DNA of 35,491 nucleotides from a virus. Both the position numbers and the translations under genes were made by a program. Below the pieces are notes generated by a model. That model was not told the DNA's origin and searched no databases. It worked only from the letters and a program-made list of their open reading frames with translations. This document shows, one piece after another, positions 1-35,491 of this stretch (the first letter of the stretch is position 1; the number at the start of each line of letters is the position of its first letter). The stretch spans positions 1 to 35,491 of IMG/VR virus record IMGVR_UViG_3300048839_000342; one strand, given 5' to 3'.

Positions 1-2
1 CG

Positions 3-158
3 ATTTCCTGCTGTGAGTCATGGTTGAAGGGCCAGACCTACACGATCGGGGCGAAGGCGACGGACCTGTACGAATACATGCGGCAAATGGGACTTCGGAA
101 CATGGACACGAGAGAAAAGCGTAAGCCCGGTTCCGTCAAGCGTGGGTCCAAGCGATGA
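3..158 (+). CDS. Partial unknown protein (C-terminal 51 residues)
   Basis: The frame is open from the window edge and ends at TGA 156-158. The visible tail begins ISCCESWLKGQ and ends in a basic stretch (REKRKPGSVKRGSKR). The stop overlaps the next start as ATGA, the usual coupling in this genome, which supports real translation. I do not recognise the protein. It lies in the 1-805 segment, which appears to be an alternative allele joined upstream of the 198-aa gene, so it may not belong to the same phage individual as the right end of the window. Confidence 0.5.
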   Translation: MSCCESWLKGQTYTIGAKATDLYEYMRQMGLRNMDTREKRKPGSVKRGSKR

Positions 159-304
159 TCTACGCCATCGCATTCGTGTGTGTGCTGCTCGGCGTCGGCA
201 CCTGCTGGATGATCGGCGACATACCCGCATCGGTCGGCGGGTTCGCTGTGGGGCTCGGGCTCATGCTCGGCGTGATTGAGCGGGATCGGAGGAAGGCGAA
301 ATGA
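155..304 (+). CDS. Small two-helix membrane protein (49 aa)
   Basis: This 49-residue frame starts at the ATG overlapping the preceding stop (ATGA). It has two hydrophobic stretches, about residues 2-20 (IYAIAFVCVLLGVGTCWMI) and 24-41, then a charged tail (ERDRRKAK). Two helices and a basic C-terminus would fit a small holin-like or superinfection-type membrane protein, but nothing in the residues fixes a function. It is followed directly by the first hairpin array. It is present only in the left-end allele; the corresponding place at the right end carries an unrelated 84-aa gene. Confidence 0.55.
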   Translation: MIYAIAFVCVLLGVGTCWMIGDIPASVGGFAVGLGLMLGVIERDRRKAK

Positions 305-380
305 TCGGGTGGGGCCTGCCTGTGCACGGATTCGCGGGGCTCGGCACGGCTGGGCGGGTCGCGGCGGGGCAATGGCAAGG

Positions 381-749
381 GCTCCACGCTCTAGCGGGCG
401 TGGGGCGGATTCGCGAGGCTCGTCTCGTCTCGGCGGGGCATGGCACGTCGCGGCGAGCCAAGGGCTCCACGCTCTAGCGGGCGTGGGGCGGATTCGCAGG
501 GCTTGTCCCGGCATGGCGTGTCGCGGCGGGGCAATGGCAAGGGCTCCACGCTCTAGCGGGCGTGGGGCGGATTCGCGAGGCTTGTCTCGTCTTGGCGGGG
601 CGTGGCACTTCGCGGCAAGGCAAGGGCTCCACGCTCTAGCGGGCGTGGGGCGGATTCGCAGGGCGCGTCTCGGCTCGGCGGGGCTAGTCGCGGCAAGGCA
701 GGGCTAGTCGCGGCAAGGCAAGGGCTCGCCGCCCGAGAGGGCGACGGGC
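381..749 (+). repeat. Array of five 26-nt covarying hairpins upstream of the 198-aa gene
   Basis: Hairpins lie at 381-406, 464-489, 543-568, 626-651 and 724-749 (start spacing 83, 79, 83, 98). Each has an 11-nt left arm, a 4-nt loop and an 11-nt right arm, then (A/G)GATT. The first four share left arm GCTCCACGCTC and loop TAGC. The fifth has left arm GCTCGCCGCCC and loop GAGA with a compensating right arm (one C-A mismatch). The spacers are G-rich low-complexity sequence built of GGC/GGCA steps. The stretch 305-771 holds no convincing gene, because the frames through it read the repeats themselves. The last hairpin ends 22 nt before the ATG at 772. Confidence 0.85.
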
Positions 750-771
750 AGATTAGAAAGGGGTTCATAAT

Positions 772-1368
772 ATGGCACTTGAAACCGCATCGCTGACTCT
801 GAAACTCGTGGGCGTTCGCCCGATCCTGCTCCACAACGCCCTGCCGTTCCTCACGCCGGACAACCCGATGCTTCGGGAGATGAAGAAAATCTCCGCGAAG
901 CAAGCGAAGTCCAAGACCGACGACGACCACGCCCGGATGTCGGAGTTGGAGTTTCACATGGGGCTCTACACCGATATGGACGGCGGCATCATCATCCCCT
1001 CCCAGAACATCGAGGCCGTGCTCCGTGCCGGGGCGACCGCCGAACGCAAGGGAAAACTCGTGCAAGCGGCGGTCACGATCGTTGACGATTCGCCGCTGCT
1101 CGACGCGAAGGGCAACCAGTATCGCGACCCGGCGAAACTCTGGGCCTCAGGTAAGCACGCCCATCGCTCGGTCTGCGCGGTGCAGAAGTCCCGTGTGCTC
1201 CGCACCCGCCCGATCTTCCACCAGTGGCAGGTGCATACGACGATGCTGTTCCTGCCGTCGCAGGTGAACAGGGCGGACATCGTGCAGGCGATGAACTACG
1301 CGGGCATCTTGAAGGGGCTTGGCGACTGGCGGCCCCGGTTCGGTTCGTTTTCCGTTGAGGTGTGTTGA
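772..1368 (+). CDS. Unknown phage protein (198 aa)
   Basis: The ATG at 772 follows AAAGGGG at a good distance and a hairpin 22 nt upstream. The product (MALETASLTLKLVG...) is a soluble mixed alpha/beta protein with conserved-looking blocks: GVRPILLHNALPF near the N-terminus, MDGGIIIPSQNIEAVL near 65-80 and GLGDWRPRFGSF at the C-terminus. I cannot assign a function. The first 34 nt differ from the second copy at 35331 and the next 127 nt are identical, so this is probably the same gene seen twice at an assembly junction. It is the first of three larger rightward genes, each with its own hairpin leader. Confidence 0.85.
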   Translation: MALETASLTLKLVGVRPILLHNALPFLTPDNPMLREMKKISAKQAKSKTDDDHARMSELEFHMGLYTDMDGGIIIPSQNIEAVLRAGATAERKGKLVQAAVTIVDDSPLLDAKGNQYRDPAKLWASGKHAHRSVCAVQKSRVLRTRPIFHQWQVHTTMLFLPSQVNRADIVQAMNYAGILKGLGDWRPRFGSFSVEVC

Positions 1369-1451
1369 TGGATTCGCGTGGCGTGTATGGGCCCGGCACC
1401 GCGAGCCCCGGAGGGGCGCGGCGAGATAGGGCAAGCCGGGTTGTGGCATGG

Positions 1452-1736
1452 GTCCGCCGCCAGAGATGGCGGCGGGCAGATTCGCATGTCAGGGCTGTGC
1501 GGGGCTCTGCCGGGCTGGGCAAGGCAAGGGCTCGCCGCCAGAGATGGCGGCGGGCAGATTCGCGCGGCGGGGCTTGGCCCGGCGGGGCCCGGCCCGGCTA
1601 GGCTCGGCAAGGGCCCGCTGTCCGAGAGGACGGCGGGCAGATTCGCATGTCAGGGCTGTGCATGGCCAGTCTCGGTGCGGTTCGTCGTGGCGATTCAGGG
1701 CATGACAAGGGCCCCCAGTCCGAGAGGGCTGGGGGC
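1452..1736 (+). repeat. Array of four covarying hairpins upstream of the 156-aa gene
   Basis: Hairpins lie at 1452-1477, 1530-1555, 1613-1638 and 1711-1736, with starts 78, 83 and 98 apart. Loops are all GAGA (GNRA type). Left arms are GTCCGCCGCCA, GCTCGCCGCCA, GCCCGCTGTCC and GCCCCCAGTCC, each matched by its right arm with only Watson-Crick or G-U pairs; stem composition varies while pairing is kept. All are followed by AGATT. The text after copies 1 and 3 (CGCATGTCAGGGCTGTGC) is duplicated, showing recent copying. The 390-nt gap 1369-1758 holds no other gene I can support. The last hairpin ends 22 nt before ATG 1759. Confidence 0.85.
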
Positions 1737-1758: not shown

Positions 1759-2229
1759 ATGGCAACGCGACGATACCCCGTAGACCTCGAATCCCTCGAA
1801 CTTGGCAGCGTCATCCCGGCCGAACGCATCGCCGAGATCGCGGGCCACGCGCCCGGCACGAACAAGCACGGCGTCGCGGCCCTGTCCATCATCAGCGAGA
1901 TCGAACGCTATTTCGCGGACAACGCAATCGCCATGCTCCCGATCCAGCGGCGAGGGTCAATCGTCATCATCGGCGGCGATGAAATGGTCGAGGCACTCGC
2001 CGAGCGGCAGAAACGCGCCATCCGCTCGATCGGTCGCGGCGTCGATCAATCGCAGCGCGTGGACCTCGGGGAGATCAGCGAAGGCCACAAGCGATCCCTC
2101 CACGCGGTGCAGTATGTCGGCTCGCGTCTGCTGCTCTACGCGAAGCAGGTGCGGAAGGAACTGAAGGCCCCGCCGAACCAGAAACCGGGCCGGGGATTGC
2201 CCGGCTGGGCTGGGGATGCGGAGCAGTAG
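1759..2229 (+). CDS. Unknown protein (156 aa)
   Basis: The ATG at 1759 is preceded by GAAAGGA and by the fourth hairpin of the array. The frame remains open far upstream, but that part only reads the hairpin repeats and is rejected. The product starts MATRRYPVDLESLELGSVIP, is soluble, has a regular helix-rich middle (ALSIISEIERYFADNAIAML; GDEMVEALAERQKRAIRSI) and a Pro/Gly-rich tail. I do not recognise a family. Its place between two hairpin arrays, in line with the 198-aa and DnaA-like genes, suggests the same early rightward transcript. Confidence 0.8.
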   Translation: MATRRYPVDLESLELGSVIPAERIAEIAGHAPGTNKHGVAALSIISEIERYFADNAIAMLPIQRRGSIVIIGGDEMVEALAERQKRAIRSIGRGVDQSQRVDLGEISEGHKRSLHAVQYVGSRLLLYAKQVRKELKAPPNQKPGRGLPGWAGDAEQ

Positions 2230-2294
2230 ATTCGCGCGGCTCGGCGATGCCAGGTTTGTCCCGGAACGGCCAGGCAGGGCGCGGCATGTCAAGG

Positions 2295-2492
2295 GCTCGT
2301 CACCCGAGAGGGTGGCGGGCAGATTCGCGAGGCGGGGCGTTGGCGGGGCTCGTCGTGGCACGGCCGGTTGCGGCGCGGCAAGGGCCCCACGCTCGAAGGG
2401 GCGTGGGGCAGATTCACGCGGAGTGGCAGGGCCTCGCGGGGCTCCGCGAGGCTGGGCCAGGCTTGGGCTCCACGCTCTAGCGGGCGTGGGGC
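2295..2492 (+). repeat. Array of three covarying hairpins upstream of the DnaA-like gene
   Basis: Hairpins lie at 2295-2320 (loop GAGA), 2384-2409 (loop GAAG) and 2467-2492 (loop TAGC), with starts 89 and 83 apart. Left arms GCTCGTCACCC, GCCCCACGCTC and GCTCCACGCTC all pair fully with their right arms, allowing G-U. The first two are followed by AGATT and the last by GATTTC. The 2230-2498 gap holds only this array and G-rich spacer. The last hairpin ends only 6 nt before ATG 2499, unlike the 21-22 nt seen for the other rightward genes. Confidence 0.85.
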
Positions 2493-4609: not shown

Positions 4610-6346
4610 TCAACCCCCGCATGTTCGGCACTGGTGGACTGGATCGCGTGCCATAAACTCGGCGATCATGGCATCGTTCGGCGGGGCCTGCAACTGCGGA
4701 TCGCCGGGCGGCTCCTGCGGATCAATCGGCTCTGATGTATCGCACGCGGCGCACGATCCGAACCATCTCCCCATCTGGTATGCCGCTCGGATGCTCGCAA
4801 GAGACGCGAGCGGAAGAATGTACTCGCTCGGGAAGTCGGTTACATTCCGAGTGCTCGCACGATTCTTGATGCACCACTTCCGCCCGTTCGCCCCGTTGCC
4901 AACCCACACCACGCCCTCGGGCCCGAGCAGCCCGGCGGCTACCGCGTCGTCATACTCTGATTGTGACACCATGATCCAGCGGTTCGCAAACGAACACCAC
5001 GGGATCAGCACATAGAGCCCGGTGCATTCGGCGCAGTCAGAGAACGGCCCGCCGCCGAGCAAGGTATCCGGTACGCCGTTCACGATGCGGGAGATCCGCT
5101 GGCAACGATCCTGCACCGTCCAGACTTGCCACACGGAAGGCGGGGACGGAAACGAATCGAGATCTACACGCCGAACACCCGAAACGCCGTCGCATCGCTC
5201 GAATTCCGCGACCGGGATCAGGTTCTCGTCGCACGCGGGGCACGATGACCACGCCCCTTCTACCCTATCCGGCTGGTTCGATGGGATGTCGGGAAGATCC
5301 ATGCCTGATCCGGCCCGGCTATGGCACACGCCATCAATCTTGACGACATTCGGCCCGCCAAACTCCGCCGGGATTGCGACCTCATCGCCGGATCCGCATC
5401 GGTGGTAGTAGGCCACCGGGATCAAGTCCGACGCATCCAGCACACAGCCGCCTGTTTCGTCGAATGGCCAACCAAAGCCGCTGTCCGGAAGCCTGAAGCC
5501 GAACAGTGCGGCCCTTCGATTCTCAGTCACACGGATACGGATCGAGTCCTCCGAGTACGGTAGAGACGGATCACCGATCGGCGTGATTGTGACACGCTCC
5601 CACCGCTGCTCTACCGATCCGTCTTCGATCGTGTCGAAGTCATATTCGTTATGCTCGCTTGTCCATGCGCGATCGCAGCAGGGCACGAACGGCGGGTTGA
5701 TCACGCACGAAGGCCCGCAATAGGGATAGTGCGTCATTTCCACTTCAAAGCAGAGCCCGCCTGATTGATCCGTGTTGTAGGAAATAAACGGGGGCTCGAG
5801 AAACTCGAATGTCGTTGTCGTTCGGATCAGCGCCCCGGATGCGTCAAACTCGCGGACCGTGCGAGGGCCACGAGAACGCCCGATGAATCTGTAGATTCCG
5901 TTGCCGGTGTCGGTGTCCGTCACGAACTCCGCGAAACCGAATCGGGACCAGTCCGACGCATCCGCAACCGAGACACTCGGCTTTCCCCATGTCAGCGTGC
6001 CGGGCACTTCATGAGTCGTAATCCGTTTCCGCCAGTCCTGAGACGGCAAGTAGTCGGGATCTAGGATTTCTTCGACTACCTCAACGGCGTATGACCACTG
6101 CATCGCCTGCGATCGCAACTGCCGCCGCTCGAACTCCGCCGGGATGTTGACCTCTTCCTCGCCGTAGCACTCGCCGTCATCCGAACCGCCAGGCGGAGGC
6201 TGAAGCGATGAATCCTCGCCGCATCCCCAGACTCGGACGAACCCTCCGCCGACGCCTTCGGAAGGTTCATCCTCGCAGATGTCGATGTACGGGCCGTCCG
6301 GGCACGGCTCGAGCGAAGGCAGGCCATTGCATTTTTTCGCCTTCAT
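4610..6346 (-). CDS. Large Cys-rich tail protein (578 aa)
   Basis: ATG 6346 overlaps the preceding stop as ATGA. The product has about 25 cysteines, many as CxxC pairs (SCPAC, DCAEC, SCAAC, CRTC) spaced along the chain, and recurring segments of the form (A/L)IP(A/V)EF or LIPVAYYHRC near several of them. This looks like a series of small metal- or disulfide-stabilised modules. It has no signal peptide. It sits downstream of the tape measure where tail-tip or hub genes lie. I do not know a family match; tail-tip protein is inference. Cysteine content stands out against all other genes here. Confidence 0.65.
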   Translation of the reverse strand: MKAKKCNGLPSLEPCPDGPYIDICEDEPSEGVGGGFVRVWGCGEDSSLQPPPGGSDDGECYGEEEVNIPAEFERRQLRSQAMQWSYAVEVVEEILDPDYLPSQDWRKRITTHEVPGTLTWGKPSVSVADASDWSRFGFAEFVTDTDTGNGIYRFIGRSRGPRTVREFDASGALIRTTTTFEFLEPPFISYNTDQSGGLCFEVEMTHYPYCGPSCVINPPFVPCCDRAWTSEHNEYDFDTIEDGSVEQRWERVTITPIGDPSLPYSEDSIRIRVTENRRAALFGFRLPDSGFGWPFDETGGCVLDASDLIPVAYYHRCGSGDEVAIPAEFGGPNVVKIDGVCHSRAGSGMDLPDIPSNQPDRVEGAWSSCPACDENLIPVAEFERCDGVSGVRRVDLDSFPSPPSVWQVWTVQDRCQRISRIVNGVPDTLLGGGPFSDCAECTGLYVLIPWCSFANRWIMVSQSEYDDAVAAGLLGPEGVVWVGNGANGRKWCIKNRASTRNVTDFPSEYILPLASLASIRAAYQMGRWFGSCAACDTSEPIDPQEPPGDPQLQAPPNDAMIAEFMARDPVHQCRTCGG

Positions 6347-18865: not shown

Positions 18866-19082
18866 GCTCATCCTCCGGTACGATTCTCGGGAGCGGATCG
18901 TGCCTGCGGTACTTTTTCTTGCCGTTACGGTTGGCGTGGATTTCCCACATCATGGCGAGGAACTTGGGGTCGCCTTCAAGTGCCTTGCGGACTATGGCGT
19001 GGCACATGGCGTCCGCGACCTTACCGCCGTCTTTGTCGATGATTTGGAGCAGTCTGGCCTCAAGATCGACTTGCGGCGGCAT
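18849..19082 (-). CDS. Unknown small helical protein (77 aa)
   Basis: ATG 19082 follows AAGGGGGGTG, and the gene overlaps its neighbours by 22 nt on each side. The protein (VDLEARLLQIIDKDGGKVAD, ALEGDPKFLAMMWEIHANRN) has two helices and a basic tail, a shape seen in small packaging or DUF5681-like accessory proteins, but there is no firm family match. Position between the Mom-like gene and the packaging HNH gene leaves either a packaging or a DNA-modification accessory role open. Confidence 0.6.
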   Translation of the reverse strand: MPPQVDLEARLLQIIDKDGGKVADAMCHAIVRKALEGDPKFLAMMWEIHANRNGKKKYRRHDPLPRIVPEDEHAQEA

Positions 19083-19803
19083 GGTTCACCCCCCTTGTTT
19101 CGGCGGGTACGGTTGAAAGCGCCGGGGTCGGATTTGCACCGCCCCCTCCGGGCTGGTTGCCCGGTATGCCGCTATCTGCACTTCCGGCGCGTTTTGGGTA
19201 TGGCTTGGCGAGCGGGAGAACGATATCCTTGGCTCCGGGGTCGAGTGGCAGCACATACTTGTGCTTTCCGGGAGTCTTGAGGCAATATGCTTTGGGGTCA
19301 ACATTTGCGCGAAGCCAAGGGATTGACTGGCCGCCTGCTCCATATCGCGTATGCAAAGTTTTAGGGTGCTCCTTTTTGCCATTGATGACATAGCAATGCA
19401 TCGTTGGCGTTCCGATGTAGTGCCATCCCATCGCCTGATAGATTCCGCCGTGATGGCCTTGCACGGTGTCCGCAAATGAAACGAGAACCCGAAGGCCTGG
19501 GCATCTTTTCCTCAACATTTTCACGGCAATAGATACGATTCTGGATGTTGGATTTTCGTGCTTTGACAGGGCTACCCGCGTCAGTTCGGCAACATCGGTA
19601 GGCTTCATGCCGAAAGGTGAGCCAATGTTTCTGTTATTCCCGCATCCAAAAGTAACGCACCCAACAAATTTTCCATTCTCCCATGCGCCGATGTTTACGG
19701 CCTTGAACTGGGCTGATGGTCTTCCGCTGTAGTGCCAGTTCTCAACCGCATAGCGTGCGGCCTTCGCGCTGCACCAGTCGAGTTTGAGGCTCGCTTTGCT
19801 CAT
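19060..19803 (-). CDS. Mom-like DNA adenine modification protein (247 aa)
   Basis: Residues 1-175 show the phage Mu Mom pattern, a GNAT-like fold that converts adenine to N6-carbamoylmethyl-adenine: YAVENWHYSGRPSAQFKAVN, then ENGKFVGCVTFGCGNNRNIG, then TDVAELTRVALSKHENPTSR, LRVLVSFADTVQGHHGG and IYQAMGWHYIGT. A Pro/Gly-rich tail of about 55 residues is extra. ATG 19803 overlaps the ParB-like stop (ATGA). Sampled stretches (19261-19320, 19501-19560, 19621-19680) average about 45% GC against 60-65% around them, so recent acquisition is likely. The modification would protect DNA from host restriction. Confidence 0.85.
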   Translation of the reverse strand: MSKASLKLDWCSAKAARYAVENWHYSGRPSAQFKAVNIGAWENGKFVGCVTFGCGNNRNIGSPFGMKPTDVAELTRVALSKHENPTSRIVSIAVKMLRKRCPGLRVLVSFADTVQGHHGGIYQAMGWHYIGTPTMHCYVINGKKEHPKTLHTRYGAGGQSIPWLRANVDPKAYCLKTPGKHKYVLPLDPGAKDIVLPLAKPYPKRAGSADSGIPGNQPGGGGANPTPALSTVPAETRGVNHAAASRS

Positions 19804-20327
19804 GCGGGTATGAACTCTTGGCCACAATGCGGGCATGTGATCGGTGATTTCTGGTCCAACCGGCTCTGCTGATCCTCCCCGACGGGCTCGAAGTTCGGCG
19901 GCGTGAGCCCGTCGATCAGGGCCTGCAACTCGTCATCCGAAAACCCCGTGTCGAGGATGTCCTCATCCCCCAGCGATTGCAGCAGGGCCGCGAGGGATTC
20001 ATCATCCCAGCCCGCGAGTTCGGATGTCCGGTTGTCCGCGATCGCGTAGGCGGTCGCCTCGACGCTCGAATCGTCCACCACGATCGCGGCAATGTGGGTC
20101 CAGCCGAGAGACTTAGCGGCTTGCAGGCGTCCGTTGCCGGCCCGGACGATCATGCCGTCCCGCTGCACGACGATCGGCTGCCGCTGGCCCCAGCGGGAGA
20201 GGCTTCGGGCGATCGCGTCGATGTTCCGCTCGGAGTGGGTGCGGGCGTTCGCTGCGTCCGGGCTGAGAGTTTCGACGGGGACCGCGAGCGGGCGGAGGGG
20301 TTCGGCGATGTACGAATGCTTGGGCAT
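19800..20327 (-). CDS. ParB-like (ParB/Srx nuclease fold) protein (175 aa)
   Basis: The N-terminal 100 residues have the ParB pattern: PLAVPVETLSPDAANARTHS, ERNIDAIARSLSRWGQRQPI, VVQRDGMIVRAGNGRLQAAK (the GNGR/GHRR-type motif), SLGWTHIAAIVVDD and AIADNRTSELAGWD. The C-terminus has CPHCGQEF, half a zinc site. There is no partition partner, so a segregation role is unlikely. ParB-fold proteins are frequent next to phage DNA methylases and Mom genes, and here the gene is coupled to the Mom-like gene, so a role in DNA modification or its control is inferred. ATG 20327 lies 1 nt after the upstream stop. Confidence 0.85.
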   Translation of the reverse strand: MPKHSYIAEPLRPLAVPVETLSPDAANARTHSERNIDAIARSLSRWGQRQPIVVQRDGMIVRAGNGRLQAAKSLGWTHIAAIVVDDSSVEATAYAIADNRTSELAGWDDESLAALLQSLGDEDILDTGFSDDELQALIDGLTPPNFEPVGEDQQSRLDQKSPITCPHCGQEFIPA

Positions 20328-20328
20328 G

Positions 20329-20871
20329 TCAGATGCCCCGCACGATCGGCTTGACGCTGGCGGCGGTCCCGCTGTTCGTGGTGACTTCCACCTCGATGTA
20401 GTCACTGCCGTAGTGGTCGATCTCGGCCACGGCGAGCCCGTCGGTCGGGGTGGTCAGGTTGACCTCTCGCACGGTGTTGTCGACGACCACGGCGATCGTG
20501 TCGGCGATGTAGTCGGTCGCGGCGATCTGGTGTCCAGAGACGCCCGTGCGGGCCCCTGCGGTCACGGTGAGCGTGCAAAGCAGACGCGGGATGAAGTTGC
20601 CCCCGGTCGTCTGTTGCCAGCCCCAGACGGCGGCTGAGGCGGTTTCGTTGTTGGCGTCCGTGATCAGGAAGCCGACGCCGACCAGGATTGAGTCCGTGAT
20701 CTCCGGGTCGGAGAAAACGAAGATCCCGTTCGCGGTGTCGGTCGCCGGGGCGGTGAGCCTCGGGGCCTTGTTGGCGCTCGTGGTGAGTGCCGTGCTGTTC
20801 GTCGAGGCGGTGGTGGGAATGTGCCAATCTGTACGCTTGCCCGCGCCTGCGGGCGATCCGCTGCGAATCAT
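20329..20871 (-). CDS. Predicted virion structural protein (180 aa)
   Basis: ATG 20871 overlaps the stop of the LamG-like gene as ATGA. The product is beta-rich with Thr/Ala/Asn turns (TAPATDTANGIFVFSDPEIT, DSILVGVGFLITDANNETAS, YIADTIAVVVDNTVREV). It has no signal peptide or membrane span. The composition resembles head-fibre or tail-appendage proteins, and it is coupled to the LamG-like gene, so the two may form one structure. Confidence 0.6.
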   Translation of the reverse strand: MIRSGSPAGAGKRTDWHIPTTASTNSTALTTSANKAPRLTAPATDTANGIFVFSDPEITDSILVGVGFLITDANNETASAAVWGWQQTTGGNFIPRLLCTLTVTAGARTGVSGHQIAATDYIADTIAVVVDNTVREVNLTTPTDGLAVAEIDHYGSDYIEVEVTTNSGTAASVKPIVRGI

Positions 20872-25716: not shown

Positions 25717-25885
25717 TGCGTGCTCCCTTCGATTTTGTCAGCGTCGCCATATACGCCGCGTGCAGGCCCACCGCGACGATCAGCGTGCCGATCGCGGCCT
25801 GCTCGCCGCCGCTGCCGACGATGACGAGAAGGCCGAGCGTCCAGATCAGGCCCGGCCAGAGGAAGTATTCAAACTGCCGCATCAT
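25706..25885 (-). CDS. Small two-helix membrane protein (59 aa)
   Basis: ATG 25885 follows AAAGGGG; the next ATG at 25882 has better spacing. The product has two hydrophobic helices (YFLWPGLIWTLGLLVIVGSG and AAIGTLIVAVGLHAAYMATL) and a basic tail (TKSKGARNGA). The topology would suit a small holin-type or membrane accessory protein, yet it sits among early genes. It overlaps both neighbours (17 and 11 nt). Confidence 0.65.
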   Translation of the reverse strand: MMRQFEYFLWPGLIWTLGLLVIVGSGGEQAAIGTLIVAVGLHAAYMATLTKSKGARNGA

Positions 25886-26459
25886 TCGCCCCTTTCATCG
25901 CTTCCGCCCACGCCCGCACGCCTGCGATCACAGCAAGATATGGGGCGAGGTACGGCGTGTCCGCGTGTTTCGTGCGCACGGCTGCCTCAAACTCGTCGAG
26001 CGTGCCGATGAAGCAGCCTCGTGTGACCTCGATATGATCGCCTCTCGGGTACGCCATCAGCGTGCCAGACGCAGAGCCGACGCCGATGAGGCACAGATAT
26101 CTACCGCGTTCGATGCTGGCGGACTCGCCGATGCGGGCGGACACGCCGATGCTGGCGTACTCGCCGATGTTGGCGGACACGCCGATGCTGGCGGACTCGC
26201 CGATGCTGGCGGACTCGCCGATGCTGGCGGACCTGCCGATGCTGGCGGACTCGCTGATGCTGGCGTACCTGCCAATGATGGCGGACTCGCCGATGCTGGC
26301 GGACCTGCCGATGCTGGCGGACCTGCCGATGCTGGCGGACCTGCCGATGCTGGTGGACTCGCCGATGATGGCGGACTTGTGCGCCCAGCCGCCACCGACA
26401 GCAATGTAGTCCTCCGTACTCCCGCCATGCCTGTCAATCACCCATTGCGGTGCGTTCAT
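25869..26459 (-). CDS. Hexapeptide-repeat (left-handed beta-helix) protein (196 aa)
   Basis: ATG 26459 follows AAAGGGG. Residues about 28-118 are roughly 15 tandem hexapeptides of the type S-A-S-I-G-E/R, fitting the [I/V]-G-x4 rule of left-handed beta-helices. They are encoded by tandem 18-bp units on the DNA (26110-26380). A non-repeat C-terminal domain follows (LIGVGSASGTLMAYPRGDHI, VTRGCFIGTLDEFEAAVRTK). Beta-helices of this type occur in acyltransferases and carbonic anhydrases, but no catalytic residue is seen. Function is unknown; DNA repeats allow in-frame length change. Confidence 0.75.
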   Translation of the reverse strand: MNAPQWVIDRHGGSTEDYIAVGGGWAHKSAIIGESTSIGRSASIGRSASIGRSASIGESAIIGRYASISESASIGRSASIGESASIGESASIGVSANIGEYASIGVSARIGESASIERGRYLCLIGVGSASGTLMAYPRGDHIEVTRGCFIGTLDEFEAAVRTKHADTPYLAPYLAVIAGVRAWAEAMKGANDAAV

Positions 26460-27650: not shown

Positions 27651-28619
27651 TCACCACCCTTCGATCTTCTCGAACTTCGGCCCCTTGTGATTCTCATCGA
27701 ATACCGCCGGGTACTCGCCGGCGGGGATCGCGTCGTGCATCGCCGCGATGGCCACCCGGCGGACGGTGTGGAGGGCCTGCATCCCCCGGCAGCCGTTCAT
27801 GCGGGCCAGCCCGACATCCAGCCCGGCGCGAAGCATCCGGGCCCGATCGAGCGGCTCGGCTCCGCCCCATTCCGCCCGCTCGCGTCCGTTGACGGCGAAG
27901 CCCCCGGAGGCCCGGACGATCTCGCCGATGCGGACGGCGGGGATGTTGTTTATCCCGAGCCCTACGGCGGGGCCGATGATCTCTCGGGCAATCTGGGAGA
28001 GCCGGGCGTCCTCGTCGTCGGGCTCCGATCTGTTAGGGGGTTCATGATTCCCGCTGCATGAACGCTCGCCCGGATGATTCATAGCATTCGCGCTAGCGAA
28101 TGCGCATGAATCTCTTATGGAGTAATGAGTGGGTAGCGCCGGCGCTACCTTTTCGACTCTGTGCGCTACCTTTTCGAGCCCATCCGCGCTACCTTTTTCG
28201 TTCTCGGCGCTACCTTTTCGTCTCTGTGCGCTACCTTTTTCTTGGGCCGATACAGTAGCGCATGCGCTACCTTTTTCGTCGATCGGCGTTAGGGCGTTCA
28301 CCCGGGCCCAGTCGATCACGAACAGGGACGCGACGCCCCGGCCAGCCCCCGGCTCCACGATCTTCAGCAGGCCCGCCTGGATCGTCTCTGCACGCATCCG
28401 CTTGACGGAACCGATGTGGGCCCCGGTCTCCCGTGCGATCGCGCCAGAGGCGATTCTGGATGGCTTGGACGGGTTGAAATCCCCGAGGGCGATCACAGCC
28501 CGGAGGTAGTCCCGGATCGTCCTGGGGATCACCGCCCGGCGAAGTGCCGCCGATGCTGCCGATTGTGTCTGTGGCGGTGTGAAGTCGCCCACCCGCGCGT
28601 CCGTGCTAGAATCGTTCAT
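27651..28619 (-). CDS. Replication initiator-like winged-helix protein (322 aa)
   Basis: ATG 28619 has AGGAGG upstream. Residues 35-110 form a winged HTH (DYLRAVIALGDFNPSKPSRI, SGAIARETGAHIGSVKRMRA, GLLKIVEPGAGRGVASLFVI) of the type found at the start of phage replication proteins. Residues about 115-160 contain KGSA/KVA repeats encoded by a DNA iteron array. The C-terminal 120 residues are helical (DARLSQIAREIIGPAVGLGI). As with lambda O, the gene seems to carry its own origin. No helicase is encoded, so it would recruit host replication proteins. Confidence 0.75.
   Translation of the reverse strand: MNDSSTDARVGDFTPPQTQSAASAALRRAVIPRTIRDYLRAVIALGDFNPSKPSRIASGAIARETGAHIGSVKRMRAETIQAGLLKIVEPGAGRGVASLFVIDWARVNALTPIDEKGSACATVSAQEKGSAQRRKGSAENEKGSADGLEKVAHRVEKVAPALPTHYSIRDSCAFASANAMNHPGERSCSGNHEPPNRSEPDDEDARLSQIAREIIGPAVGLGINNIPAVRIGEIVRASGGFAVNGRERAEWGGAEPLDRARMLRAGLDVGLARMNGCRGMQALHTVRRVAIAAMHDAIPAGEYPAVFDENHKGPKFEKIEGW
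28084..28278. other. Candidate replication origin: iteron array inside the initiator gene
   Basis: Six direct copies of GCGCTACCTTTT(T)CG start at 28142, 28163, 28186, 28207, 28228 and 28264 (spacing 21, 23, 21, 21, 36), that is two helical turns. The outer copies each face an inverted copy and form perfect palindromes: GGTAGCGCCGGCGCTACC at 28132-28149 and GTAGCGCATGCGCTAC at 28256-28271. Beside the array are an AT-richer stretch (28104-28129) and an 8-bp inverted repeat GCATTCGC/GCGAATGC (28084-28103). The layout resembles lambda ori within gene O. Copies are read in two frames (EKGSA and EKVA), so DNA rather than protein is conserved. Confidence 0.75.
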
Positions 28620-32317: not shown

Positions 32318-32523
32318 CGTCTGGCCTCCCGCCATACACGCTCGATCGCCTCCGCGACGGACGCGTGTACGGTGTACGAACGAGATTCGGTGATGTTCCG
32401 CACCGTCCACCGGGATATGCCCGCCTTCGCGGCGATGTCGATGATTTTCCACCCGCCGGCACGCAGTGCGTTGATCTTCAAACGCACCTCGTGCGCGGGG
32501 ACATTCGTGGGTCTGTATGACAT
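32314..32523 (-). CDS. Small HTH DNA-binding protein (69 aa)
   Basis: ATG 32523 overlaps the upstream stop as TGATG. The core KINALRAGGWKIIDIAAKAG and ISRWTVRNITESRSYTVHAS is a clear helix-turn-helix (A-A-x-x-G-I-S-x-x-T-V-x-x-I). No other domain is present. It is probably a regulator of the early operon. The frame runs on upstream through the Ala-repeat region only as a shadow. Confidence 0.75.
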   Translation of the reverse strand: MSYRPTNVPAHEVRLKINALRAGGWKIIDIAAKAGISRWTVRNITESRSYTVHASVAEAIERVWREARR

Positions 32524-33188
32524 CACTCGCCCCCCAACACTTCGAGCACCCGATCCAGTTGCCAGCGGTATTCCGCAGCCCCCGCCGCAACCAACGCCGC
32601 AGTCTCCGCCGCATCCACCGCCGCAGCCCACGCCGCAGCCCACGCCGCAGCCCCCGCCGCAGCACGCGCCGCAGCACGCGCCGCAGCCCGCGCCGCATCC
32701 CACGCCGCAGCACGCGCCGCAGCCCCCGCCGCAACCAACGCCGCAGTCTCCGCCGCAGCCCCCGCCGCAGCCCACGCCGCATCCACCCCCGCATTCCACG
32801 CCGCAGCCCGCGCCGCAGCCACCCCCGCAGCCCACGCCGCAGCCCGCGCCGCAGCCAACTCGTTGTTCGTCGCCTCGCCTCTGATCCACCGTCGCTTCGC
32901 CTCGATCGCCGCCCACGAGCGAGGGTCCGGATCACAGCCCGCGTCCCGCTCACGAGTCAAGGCACGCTCCGCGAAGTCGCACGCCAGCGAATGCAGCGTC
33001 ATCTCCGGGATCAGTTCGGGCCTCAGGACCAGCCACAAGATATCTTTCGATGGGATCTGATCCCCGAACTCCCGGATGATCTCCACCGCCGTCCACCGGC
33101 GATCGCCGAGAAGCGAATGGACTCGATCGCGGTCGTAATCCTCGCACGGGTACAAAGCCATGACGCCATCGACATCAATCGTGAGCAT
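32523..33188 (-). CDS. Ala-rich repeat protein (221 aa)
   Basis: ATG 33188 (or 33191) follows GGGGGAGG. Residues 1-105 form a normal domain (MLTIDVDGVMALYPCEDYDR, DILWLVLRPELIPEMTLHSL, DPRSWAAIEAKRRWIRGEAT) seen in other phage and bacterial proteins whose function is unknown. Residues about 108-205 are tandem Ala-rich units of the type AAARAAAWDAA with Trp, Asp or Arg at regular steps, encoded by repeats of GCCGCAGCC-type DNA (32575-32860). It ends with a normal helix (RWQLDRVLEVLGGE). The repeat is probably a long amphipathic helix; its length could vary by slippage in steps of three bases. Confidence 0.75.
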   Translation of the reverse strand: MLTIDVDGVMALYPCEDYDRDRVHSLLGDRRWTAVEIIREFGDQIPSKDILWLVLRPELIPEMTLHSLACDFAERALTRERDAGCDPDPRSWAAIEAKRRWIRGEATNNELAAARAAAWAAGVAAARAAAWNAGVDAAWAAAGAAAETAALVAAGAAARAAAWDAARAAARAAARAAAGAAAWAAAWAAAVDAAETAALVAAGAAEYRWQLDRVLEVLGGE

Positions 33189-33927
33189 CATCCACCTCCC
33201 CCACGAACCCATTCACATACGGCCTGGCGTGCGAATACGGCAGCCGATCCGGCCCGCCGTCGATCCAAAGCACCCAGTTGTCCACCGCCTCGATCTTCTC
33301 CGCCTGCCGCATAAATCCGTCGAACTCGTACGGCGTCTGCCGCCCGTGGTGCGTCCAGGGCCCGACGAACGCGGTCGTCTGCGTTCCGGTGCGATCGGCG
33401 AGAATCCGGGCCCGTTCGATCCGTGGCGTGTTGTGCCGCAGCCAATCGCCGTCCATCGGCCCGCCGTAGAGGTCGATGACGATCTCGCGGGGACGCCCGA
33501 TCATGTCCAAGACGCTGTAATCGTCGCGTGTCTCGGCCCCCATGTGCATCTGGTAGATGCCGAGGGGCTCGGTGCCGAGCGTTCCACACTCGGCCATAGT
33601 TCGGCCGATGTGGGCGAGGACGGTGTTCCGTCGATACCAGTCGGTATCGTACTGCGAGCCGCTGCCCGAGAACGCCGAACGCCCCACTTCCATTTCCAGA
33701 TACGCCGGGCCCTCGGGGATCCGCTCGGCGAGCGTGGCAAGGTGGATGGGGTACGCACCCTTGCCCGTCGGCTCCACCCAACCCGCCACATAGTCCACCT
33801 CGCCCCACATCTCGCGGGGCTGCAAGTGCCCGGGGCAGAGCGTGTTGTGGTCGATCATCGACGCCAGCTCGACGCCCTCGATCGACTGGGGAACATCGTG
33901 GAACCGCTTGATGATTGCACGCTTCAT
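33175..33927 (-). CDS. Unknown protein (250 aa)
   Basis: ATG 33927 follows AAGGGGG and overlaps the upstream stop as ATGA. The product is soluble and alpha/beta, with segments such as GEVDYVAGWVEPTGKGAYPI, PREIVIDLYGGPMDGDWLRH, RARILADRTGTQTTAFVGPW and VDNWVLWIDGGPDRLPYSHA. Alternating strands and helices in the second half recall a TIM-barrel hydrolase, but no catalytic pattern can be named. It is the third gene of the early leftward operon. Confidence 0.7.
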   Translation of the reverse strand: MKRAIIKRFHDVPQSIEGVELASMIDHNTLCPGHLQPREMWGEVDYVAGWVEPTGKGAYPIHLATLAERIPEGPAYLEMEVGRSAFSGSGSQYDTDWYRRNTVLAHIGRTMAECGTLGTEPLGIYQMHMGAETRDDYSVLDMIGRPREIVIDLYGGPMDGDWLRHNTPRIERARILADRTGTQTTAFVGPWTHHGRQTPYEFDGFMRQAEKIEAVDNWVLWIDGGPDRLPYSHARPYVNGFVGEVDDAHD

Positions 33928-34693: not shown

Positions 34694-34882
34694 ATGAGCC
34701 AGAAACTACTGACAACCGCGGAACTTCTCCCCCTCGTCAACGCCAAGTTGAACACCCCGATTGGCGTCCACGCACTCCGGCGAAGGATTCGGGATCGGAG
34801 CGTCCTGCCGGTGAAGCGGATCGGGCAGGCTGGGCTGTACCCTGTGTCGGTGGTGCGGGTGCTGACGAGGGATAAGGCGTGA
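34694..34882 (+). CDS. Small HTH regulator (62 aa)
   Basis: The product begins MSQKLLTTAELLPLVNAKLN and continues TPIGVHALRRRIRDRSVLPV and KRIGQAGLYPVSVVRVL, the pattern of MerR/HTH_17-type DNA-binding domains: T-x-x-E-x-x start, helix, RRRIRDR recognition region, then a short wing. ATG 34694 is preferred to GTG 34670, which would lie inside the promoter. It faces the early leftward operon, so it probably acts as a switch regulator, Cro- or excisionase-like. Confidence 0.65.
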   Translation: MSQKLLTTAELLPLVNAKLNTPIGVHALRRRIRDRSVLPVKRIGQAGLYPVSVVRVLTRDKA

Positions 34883-35133
34883 ATACGGGGGCTGGCGTCG
34901 GGCATGAGGATATCCGTAGGTTCATTGCCGATGCCCTCTCTGGCCGCGTTCCGTGTGCGGCGTGGGTGAGGCCGACGACAATGCCGGTGGCGAAGATCGC
35001 GGAAAGTTTCGGGTACGCCGCCATCGCGGAGGATCGGAATCGCTGCATCATCGGCGGTGTCGTCATCATCCGGCATCGGAGGCAGTTGCAGCACGCGCAG
35101 AAATGGACAGCAGAGCCATCGCTGACGAAATGA
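34879..35133 (+). CDS. Unknown protein (84 aa)
   Basis: The GTG at 34879 overlaps the HTH stop as GTGA, with GAGGGATAAGG upstream. The product MNTGAGVGHEDIRRFIADAL is mixed alpha/beta with a SFGYAAIAEDRNRCIIGGVV segment and a basic end. No family is recognised. It occupies the place that in the left-end allele is held by the 49-aa membrane protein gene, so this position seems to be variable between relatives. Confidence 0.65.
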   Translation: MNTGAGVGHEDIRRFIADALSGRVPCAAWVRPTTMPVAKIAESFGYAAIAEDRNRCIIGGVVIIRHRRQLQHAQKWTAEPSLTK

Positions 35134-35190
35134 CGCGCGGCCGGTCGTGGAACGGACAGGCCCGGCACGGACAGGCCCGGCACGGCTAGG

Positions 35191-35309
35191 GCCCATCGCT
35201 CTAACGGGCGTTGGGCAGATTCGCAAGTCGCGGCACGGCGCGGCAAGGCAAGGCCGGTCCGGTCCGGGCGAGGCAAGTCAAGGGCTCCGCACTCTAACGG
35301 GTGCGGGGC
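35191..35309 (+). repeat. Array of two covarying hairpins at the right end
   Basis: Hairpins lie at 35191-35216 (left arm GCCCATCGCTC, loop TAAC, one T-T mismatch) and 35284-35309 (left arm GCTCCGCACTC, loop TAAC, fully paired), 93 nt apart, both followed by AGATT. Upstream a 15-bp unit, ACGGACAGGCCCGGC, is repeated in tandem. The second hairpin ends 21 nt before ATG 35331, as for the 772 gene. The 35134-35330 gap holds nothing else. Confidence 0.85.
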
Positions 35310-35330: not shown

Positions 35331-35491
35331 ATGGCACTCGAAACCGCGTCGTTGACTCTCCGCGTCGTGGGCGTTCGCCCGATCCTGCTCCACAACGCCC
35401 TGCCGTTCCTCACGCCGGACAACCCGATGCTTCGGGAGATGAAGAAAATCTCCGCGAAGCAAGCGAAGTCCAAGACCGACGACGACCACGC
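35331..35491 (+). CDS. 5' part of the 198-aa protein gene, second allele
   Basis: ATG 35331 follows GAAAGGTGG. The first 34 nt differ from the copy at 772 (product starts MALETASLTLRVVGVRP instead of ...LKLVGVRP) and the following 127 nt to the window end are identical to 806-932. The frame runs off the edge. It is most simply the same gene reached again at an assembly closure point, with the true reading 35331-35364 joined to 806-1368. Confidence 0.8.
   Translation, partial: MALETASLTLRVVGVRPILLHNALPFLTPDNPMLREMKKISAKQAKSKTDDDH

Follow-up and report, generated by a model that had tools for sequence, protein, structure and literature searches.

Probable circular closure of a phage contig within a VIPR locus separates two apparent guide arrays upstream of one vipr gene

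Why should a viral contig end on a sequence that it already contains near its start, and what lies on either side of the resulting seam? The DNA stretch analyzed here (the window) comprises 35,491 nucleotides, positions 1 to 35,491 of IMG/VR virus record IMGVR_UViG_3300048839_000342, and its final 127 nt recur inside a gene for a 198-aa protein. Such an assembly effect is in itself ordinary and is of interest for the sequences that the seam divides. The explanation that we favor as a whole, to which we assign a probability of roughly 85%, is closure of the genome with a second upstream allele at a VIPR locus, such that alternative guide arrays would serve one Vipr.

VIPR (Viral Interference Programmable Repeat) was described in a 2026 preprint as a system that represses competing phages and satellites (PMC13142463). 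It includes a small RAMP-like protein, Vipr, and vrRNAs that carry 9-16 GGY/NN repeats and a 3′ tail (PMC13142463). These vrRNAs recognize double-stranded DNA via their NN positions with a 1-nt skip (PMC13142463).

The features of the window that surround the seam are as follows.

1-805, plus strand: alternative upstream allele, with an ORF end (stop at 156-158), a short membrane-like ORF from 157, vrRNAs A1 to A5 and the first 34 nt of vipr
772-1368, plus strand: vipr, 198 aa, matching PHROG 4652 (6e-47), with its start read from the 1-805 allele
806-932, plus strand: first 127-nt copy, inside vipr, exactly identical to 35365-35491
1759-2229, plus strand: vap, 156 aa, the vipr partner, assigned by profile homology
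35331-35491, plus strand: vipr start of the main (circle) allele, continuing at 933 after closure; the joined ORF is intact at 198 aa
35365-35491, plus strand: second 127-nt copy, ending with the contig and read as a shared assembler k-mer

Self-comparison of the window revealed that the two copies are identical over 127 nt, which cannot be chance, and that the second copy stops at the last base of the contig (35491). The bases directly before the two copies differ (C/G at 805/35364). This pair is the longest repeat in the window, and the next longest (63 nt) lies within the array at 358-705. When the ends of 32 viral records (window included) were checked, end sequences that recur within the record were found in two of them: the window and G006, an unrelated record of 71,837 nt from the same collection whose first and last 127 nt are the same, as in a plain circular contig. 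Because both matches are exactly 127 nt, the length of the repeat appears to have been set by the assembler, whose largest k we take to be 127 from JGI practice. The window thus carries the expected signature of circular closure, in which a contig end overlaps exactly over the length of the assembler k-mer. A previous sequence-only reading of this DNA had proposed both the exact overlap preceded by a mismatch and its origin in an assembler k-mer of 127, and both proposals are borne out.

We interpret the contig as a “lollipop” path through the assembly graph. The phage genome, circular or circularly permuted and spanning 806-35364 (34,559 bp), would close on itself, and the 805-bp lead-in would be contributed by a second, related phage. 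The two paths would merge at their first shared 127-mer, 34 nt inside vipr. When 35364 is joined to 806, the 198-aa ORF is intact, and K11R and L12V, both conservative, are its only differences from the ORF at 772-1368. Across the seam, a single continuous plus-strand block is formed that includes the genes at 34694-34882 and 34879-35133, vrRNAs B1-B2, vipr, D1-D4, vap and E1-E3. Furthermore, the 34 nt that precede each copy (772-805 versus 35331-35364) are the same gene start, with eight mismatches (76% identity) that change six codons, four of them synonymously, and the stretch from the last hairpin to the vipr start codon is also similar in both alleles. Given these homologous starts, mostly synonymous changes and similar hairpin-to-start stretches, positions 1-805 are best regarded as a diverged allele rather than a random join.

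Thus, the earlier proposal of circular closure (806-35364) with a second allele at 1-805 is supported by the 127-nt signature, the intact joined ORF, the operon across the seam and the synonymous divergence. We consider the well-supported best reading to be a closure, circular or permuted, in which two alleles precede the 198-aa gene, while some residual probability stays with alternative shapes of the assembly graph. From these features we infer that the genome is either circular or a permuted linear molecule, and that two phages coexisted in the sample.

As printed, the contig presents two vipr starts, each with its own vrRNA array, and could therefore be one linear molecule with two vipr genes: an upstream gene (772) and a second (35331) that is cut by the contig end. 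However, across 156 phage records with a match, the vipr match always falls in a single place. Likewise, none of the 31 viral records with a match, many of which are fragments, has two vipr genes, since the one record with two matches carries a split gene. Duplication of vipr in one molecule is unlikely on these counts, and an identity of exactly 127 nt at the contig end is what is expected of a shared k-mer. We therefore judge two genes in one molecule to be improbable, albeit the least improbable of the alternatives to closure with a second allele.

The locus itself can be recognized from its protein. PHROG 4652 is a family of unknown function, but the 198-aa protein also has one match of known structure, PDB 36pp chain D (“SUSP1 Vipr protein”), with a phmmer E value of 3e-28 for the single sequence and an E value of 2e-70 for a profile of 25 family members. 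By this homology, the 198-aa gene is vipr. In a phylogenetic tree, the window Vipr occupies a long branch and joins no supported clade, that of SUSP1 included. Searches of Pfam and NCBIfam with Vipr returned no match, Cas5 and Cas6 gave marginal matches only for single members of the Vipr family, and exact peptide and DNA searches for vipr found nothing in IMG/VR, from which close records may have been withheld. At another locus (L072; G020:7253-7814), vipr is split into two frames, and this broken or frameshifted copy lies next to arrays that are intact.

Downstream of vipr, the gene at 1759-2229 was compared with a profile built from the vipr-following genes of seven other viruses, which yielded a hmmsearch E value of 2.4e-9 (nominal database of 1000) and a hhalign probability of 95.7. 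This relationship was undetectable by BLAST and was revealed by the profile alone. Because the gene is profile-related to those that follow vipr in other viruses, we assign it as vap by remote homology. In Gordonia phage Trine, the annotated 267-aa gene 40 starts within the vrRNA array, and its first 99 residues (L024:4585-4881) come from reading across GGY/NN repeats. In Trine, vap probably starts in truth at the ATG at 4882.

Fourteen repeat tracts, each followed by a hairpin tail, were then delimited in the window.

329-406, plus strand: vrRNA A1 (1-805 allele), 8 pentamers and hairpin tail
408-489, plus strand: vrRNA A2 (1-805 allele), 10 pentamers and tail
491-568, plus strand: vrRNA A3 (1-805 allele), 8 pentamers and tail
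570-651, plus strand: vrRNA A4 (1-805 allele), 10 pentamers and tail
653-749, plus strand: vrRNA A5 (1-805 allele), 13 pentamers and tail, just before vipr
1371-1477, plus strand: vrRNA D1 (after vipr), 14 pentamers, degenerate, and tail
1479-1555, plus strand: vrRNA D2, 8 pentamers and tail
1557-1638, plus strand: vrRNA D3, 9 pentamers, all GGC, and tail
1640-1736, plus strand: vrRNA D4, 12 pentamers and tail, before vap
2229-2320, plus strand: vrRNA E1 (after vap), 11 pentamers and tail
2322-2409, plus strand: vrRNA E2, 9 pentamers and tail
2411-2492, plus strand: vrRNA E3, 8 pentamers and tail identical to 1-805 allele tails
35142-35216, plus strand: vrRNA B1 (circle allele), 10 pentamers and tail
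35218-35309, plus strand: vrRNA B2 (circle allele), 11 pentamers and tail, just before vipr

Pentamers were delimited by reading back from each hairpin, which gave a total of 141 with 8-14 per tract. Among the 141, G occupies position 1 in 129 and C occupies position 3 in 129, position 2 holds G in 108 and T in 28, and the two remaining positions (4 and 5) are near even. GGC accounts for 90 of the 141 and GTC for 23, and some pentamers carry TGC or CGC instead of GGY. Three tracts contain a 1-nt shift or insertion. The tracts therefore agree with the published description of about 9-16 tandem GGY/NN repeats, with a consensus that is looser than strict GGY. Each tract ends at its 3′ side with AAGG (or a close variant), followed by an 11-bp hairpin with a GAGA, UAGC, UAAC or GAAG tetraloop. 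Pairing holds in 98.3% of cells for the 11 distinct tails, and six of the 11 base pairs are changed on both sides. Neither this paired percentage nor the covariation score was reached in any of 500 shuffles, such that the structured 3′ tail of the published system is represented here by a hairpin with covariation. RNA folding of four units (A2, A5, D3 and B2) returned the tail hairpin each time, with one mismatch in the A5 stem.

Other searches with these arrays returned little. Rfam produced no match, the hairpin pattern had no match in IMG/VR, and scans for sigma-70 promoters and terminators gave no signal above shuffles. The hairpin pattern matched 19 bacterial sequences, which we attribute to chance given that their stems pair at only 5-8 of 11 positions. 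Three other interpretations of the arrays were considered and were dropped once the PDB match named Vipr: a TRAP-like RNA-binding ring with a 5-nt repeat, two-layer G-quadruplexes, and start-associated hairpins as in cluster K mycobacteriophages.

Taken together, Vipr, vap, the repeats and the tails identify the window as a VIPR locus. This identity, comprising Vipr, the vrRNA tails and the guide array as the part that varies, is not recognized in the sequence-only reading.

Arrays at other loci show some variety. The SUSP1 locus is reported to have one vrRNA before vipr and three after it (PMC13142463), and in our comparison (L059; phiSUSP1, KT454805.2) one GGY run was detected before vipr and two after it. 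In Trine and LittleE, the vrRNA tails (L024:4783-4851 and L023:2720-2910) carry a T-arm-like sequence, GGTTCGANTCC, and ARAGORN called one Trine tail a tRNA without a readable anticodon. These vrRNAs might be cut by host tRNA processing enzymes. Three loci (L058, L060 and L061) have no GGY runs upstream or downstream of vipr. The flank of L060 contains GGA-type pentamers (apparent ORF MDGRGMERTGEERTGREGKG), which are perhaps the “related consensus” of another VIPR type.

Tandem repeats also occur within ORFs elsewhere in the window. Repeats of 18 bp at 26111-26377 lie in the minus-strand ORF 25869-26459 and encode an S-A-S-I-G-R/E hexapeptide repeat, and 21-nt repeats (GCGCTACCTTTTCGACTCTCT) at 28142-28239 lie in the minus-strand ORF 27651-28619. 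At 32573-32856, 12-bp repeats in the minus-strand ORF 32523-33212 encode an alanine-rich AAARAAAW-type repeat, and the opposite strand is likewise open. A minus-strand gene for a Mom-family DNA modification protein (19060-19836; Pfam E value of 2e-45) overlaps a ParB-like gene (19800-20405), with the terminase region on one side of this pair and the tail genes on the other.

Positions 1-303 contain small ORFs unlike those at 34694-35133, as would be the case if the 805-bp lead-in had been joined chimerically from an unrelated phage instead of being an allele of this locus. However, such a join is at odds with the homologous vipr start and its mostly synonymous changes. It also conflicts with the tails of A1-A4, which match the E3 tail of the circle without a difference; an unchanged copy of the 26-nt hairpin from the 1-805 allele is present at 2467, which bears out the earlier view that this allele has different small genes but the same hairpins. 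Moreover, 12 of the 14 tracts, in both alleles, have GATTCGC directly 5′ of them, each time on the plus strand (the motif is also present elsewhere in the window). We thus regard an unrelated origin of the lead-in as slightly less probable still than two genes in one molecule.

If positions 1-805 are a diverged allele, the seam separates five upstream vrRNAs (A1-A5) from two (B1-B2) that precede the same vipr body, and the NN series of the two sets have no guide in common. The two alleles therefore appear to be alternative upstream guide arrays feeding one Vipr in closely related phages. In 46 related loci, all 129 GGY/NN runs are on the vipr strand and within 1.5 kb of vipr; none occurs further off or on the opposite strand in these loci, and none was found in first-order Markov resampled sequence.

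We then compared sister loci from a Felixounavirus-like group and two further groups, excluding full duplicates. Overall, vipr is 93.9-99.8% identical between sisters, whereas the upstream 450 nt are 65-90% identical and the guides are mostly unshared. For example, L069 and L071 share one of five guides (99.8% identity in vipr versus 86.9% in the upstream 450 nt), and L042 and L045 share one of three (99.3% versus 89.8%). Among seven Felixounavirus-type loci, vipr is 93.9-97.8% and the upstream region 65-85% identical, with at most one guide shared per pair. In the alignments, whole repeat tracts are replaced while tails and neighbors are identical. The expectation from the earlier reading that sequence upstream of the 198-aa gene varies among relatives therefore holds in independent sister groups, and guide turnover beside a conserved vipr is general among the sequences compared. 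In the window, identity switches from about 76% to 100% at 34 nt inside vipr, which, as read from this one junction, fits homologous recombination at the 5′ end of the gene.

A programmed switch in one phage that alternates two arrays before vipr would yield the same picture of two arrays and one shared gene body, but we give it very little credence because the window has no exact inverted repeats of at least 20 nt, the proteins scanned (part of the set) include no invertase, and sister phages differ by replaced tracts rather than by rearranged identical ones.

Only the anatomy is shown in the window; its most likely mechanism is taken from the published VIPR system, and expression and targeting are proposed by analogy. 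The window vrRNAs, which flank vipr and also follow vap, consist of G(G/T)C-NN pentamers and a hairpin tail. Transcription of the plus strand across the array would release vrRNAs of approximately 80-100 nt, each of which would be coated by Vipr. Their NN dinucleotides would pair with DNA under the 1-nt skip rule, and the targets so bound, whether in a competing phage or in a satellite, would be repressed with help from vap. Exchange of the array would alter the targets and leave the protein unchanged. Searches of IMG/VR with three exact 18-base target patterns found nothing, and the best 1-nt-skip match within the sequences compared (14/16) is no better than the best with other skips.

We also offer, as a tentative and rather doubtful suggestion, that the window may represent a VIPR lineage separate from the types described so far, in which hairpin tails diversify by compensation, the code is G(G/T)C-NN, and coexisting phages exchange whole upstream arrays by recombination at the vipr 5′ end.

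The VIPR preprint (PMC13142463) covers how guides are read and leaves out how they change hands. Here, one metagenomic population seemingly contains two guide arrays before the same vipr, and the source, rate and mechanism of guide turnover become directly testable. VIPR arrays will also break short-read assemblies, and some contig ends near vipr will reflect guide variation.

Compared with known systems, the window most resembles VIPR: its locus is phage-borne, with a homologous Vipr, vap downstream, and GGY/NN-pentamer vrRNAs that end in a structured 3′ tail and lie in long intergenic regions on either side of vipr. It differs in that the tail stem varies between units with compensation, whereas the tail is described as “invariable” in the preprint (PMC13142463). 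In addition, GTC makes up 23 of its 141 repeats, 12 of its 14 tracts have a GATTCGC leader, each locus holds up to twelve vrRNAs (A1-A5 or B1-B2, plus D1-D4 and E1-E3), and its Vipr forms a long branch that falls in no supported clade. Class 1 CRISPR systems with RAMP proteins (Cas5, Cas6 and Cas7) are similar insofar as Vipr is a RAMP homologue that oligomerizes on a guide RNA (PMC13142463), but VIPR has no CRISPR array or cas genes and its guide is discontinuous. Finally, the exact 127-nt overlap is common to G006 and the window, as in end-overlap circular IMG/VR contigs from k-mer assemblies. Unlike plain circular contigs of this kind, however, the end of the window joins an internal site 805 nt from its start, and a second allele leads in.
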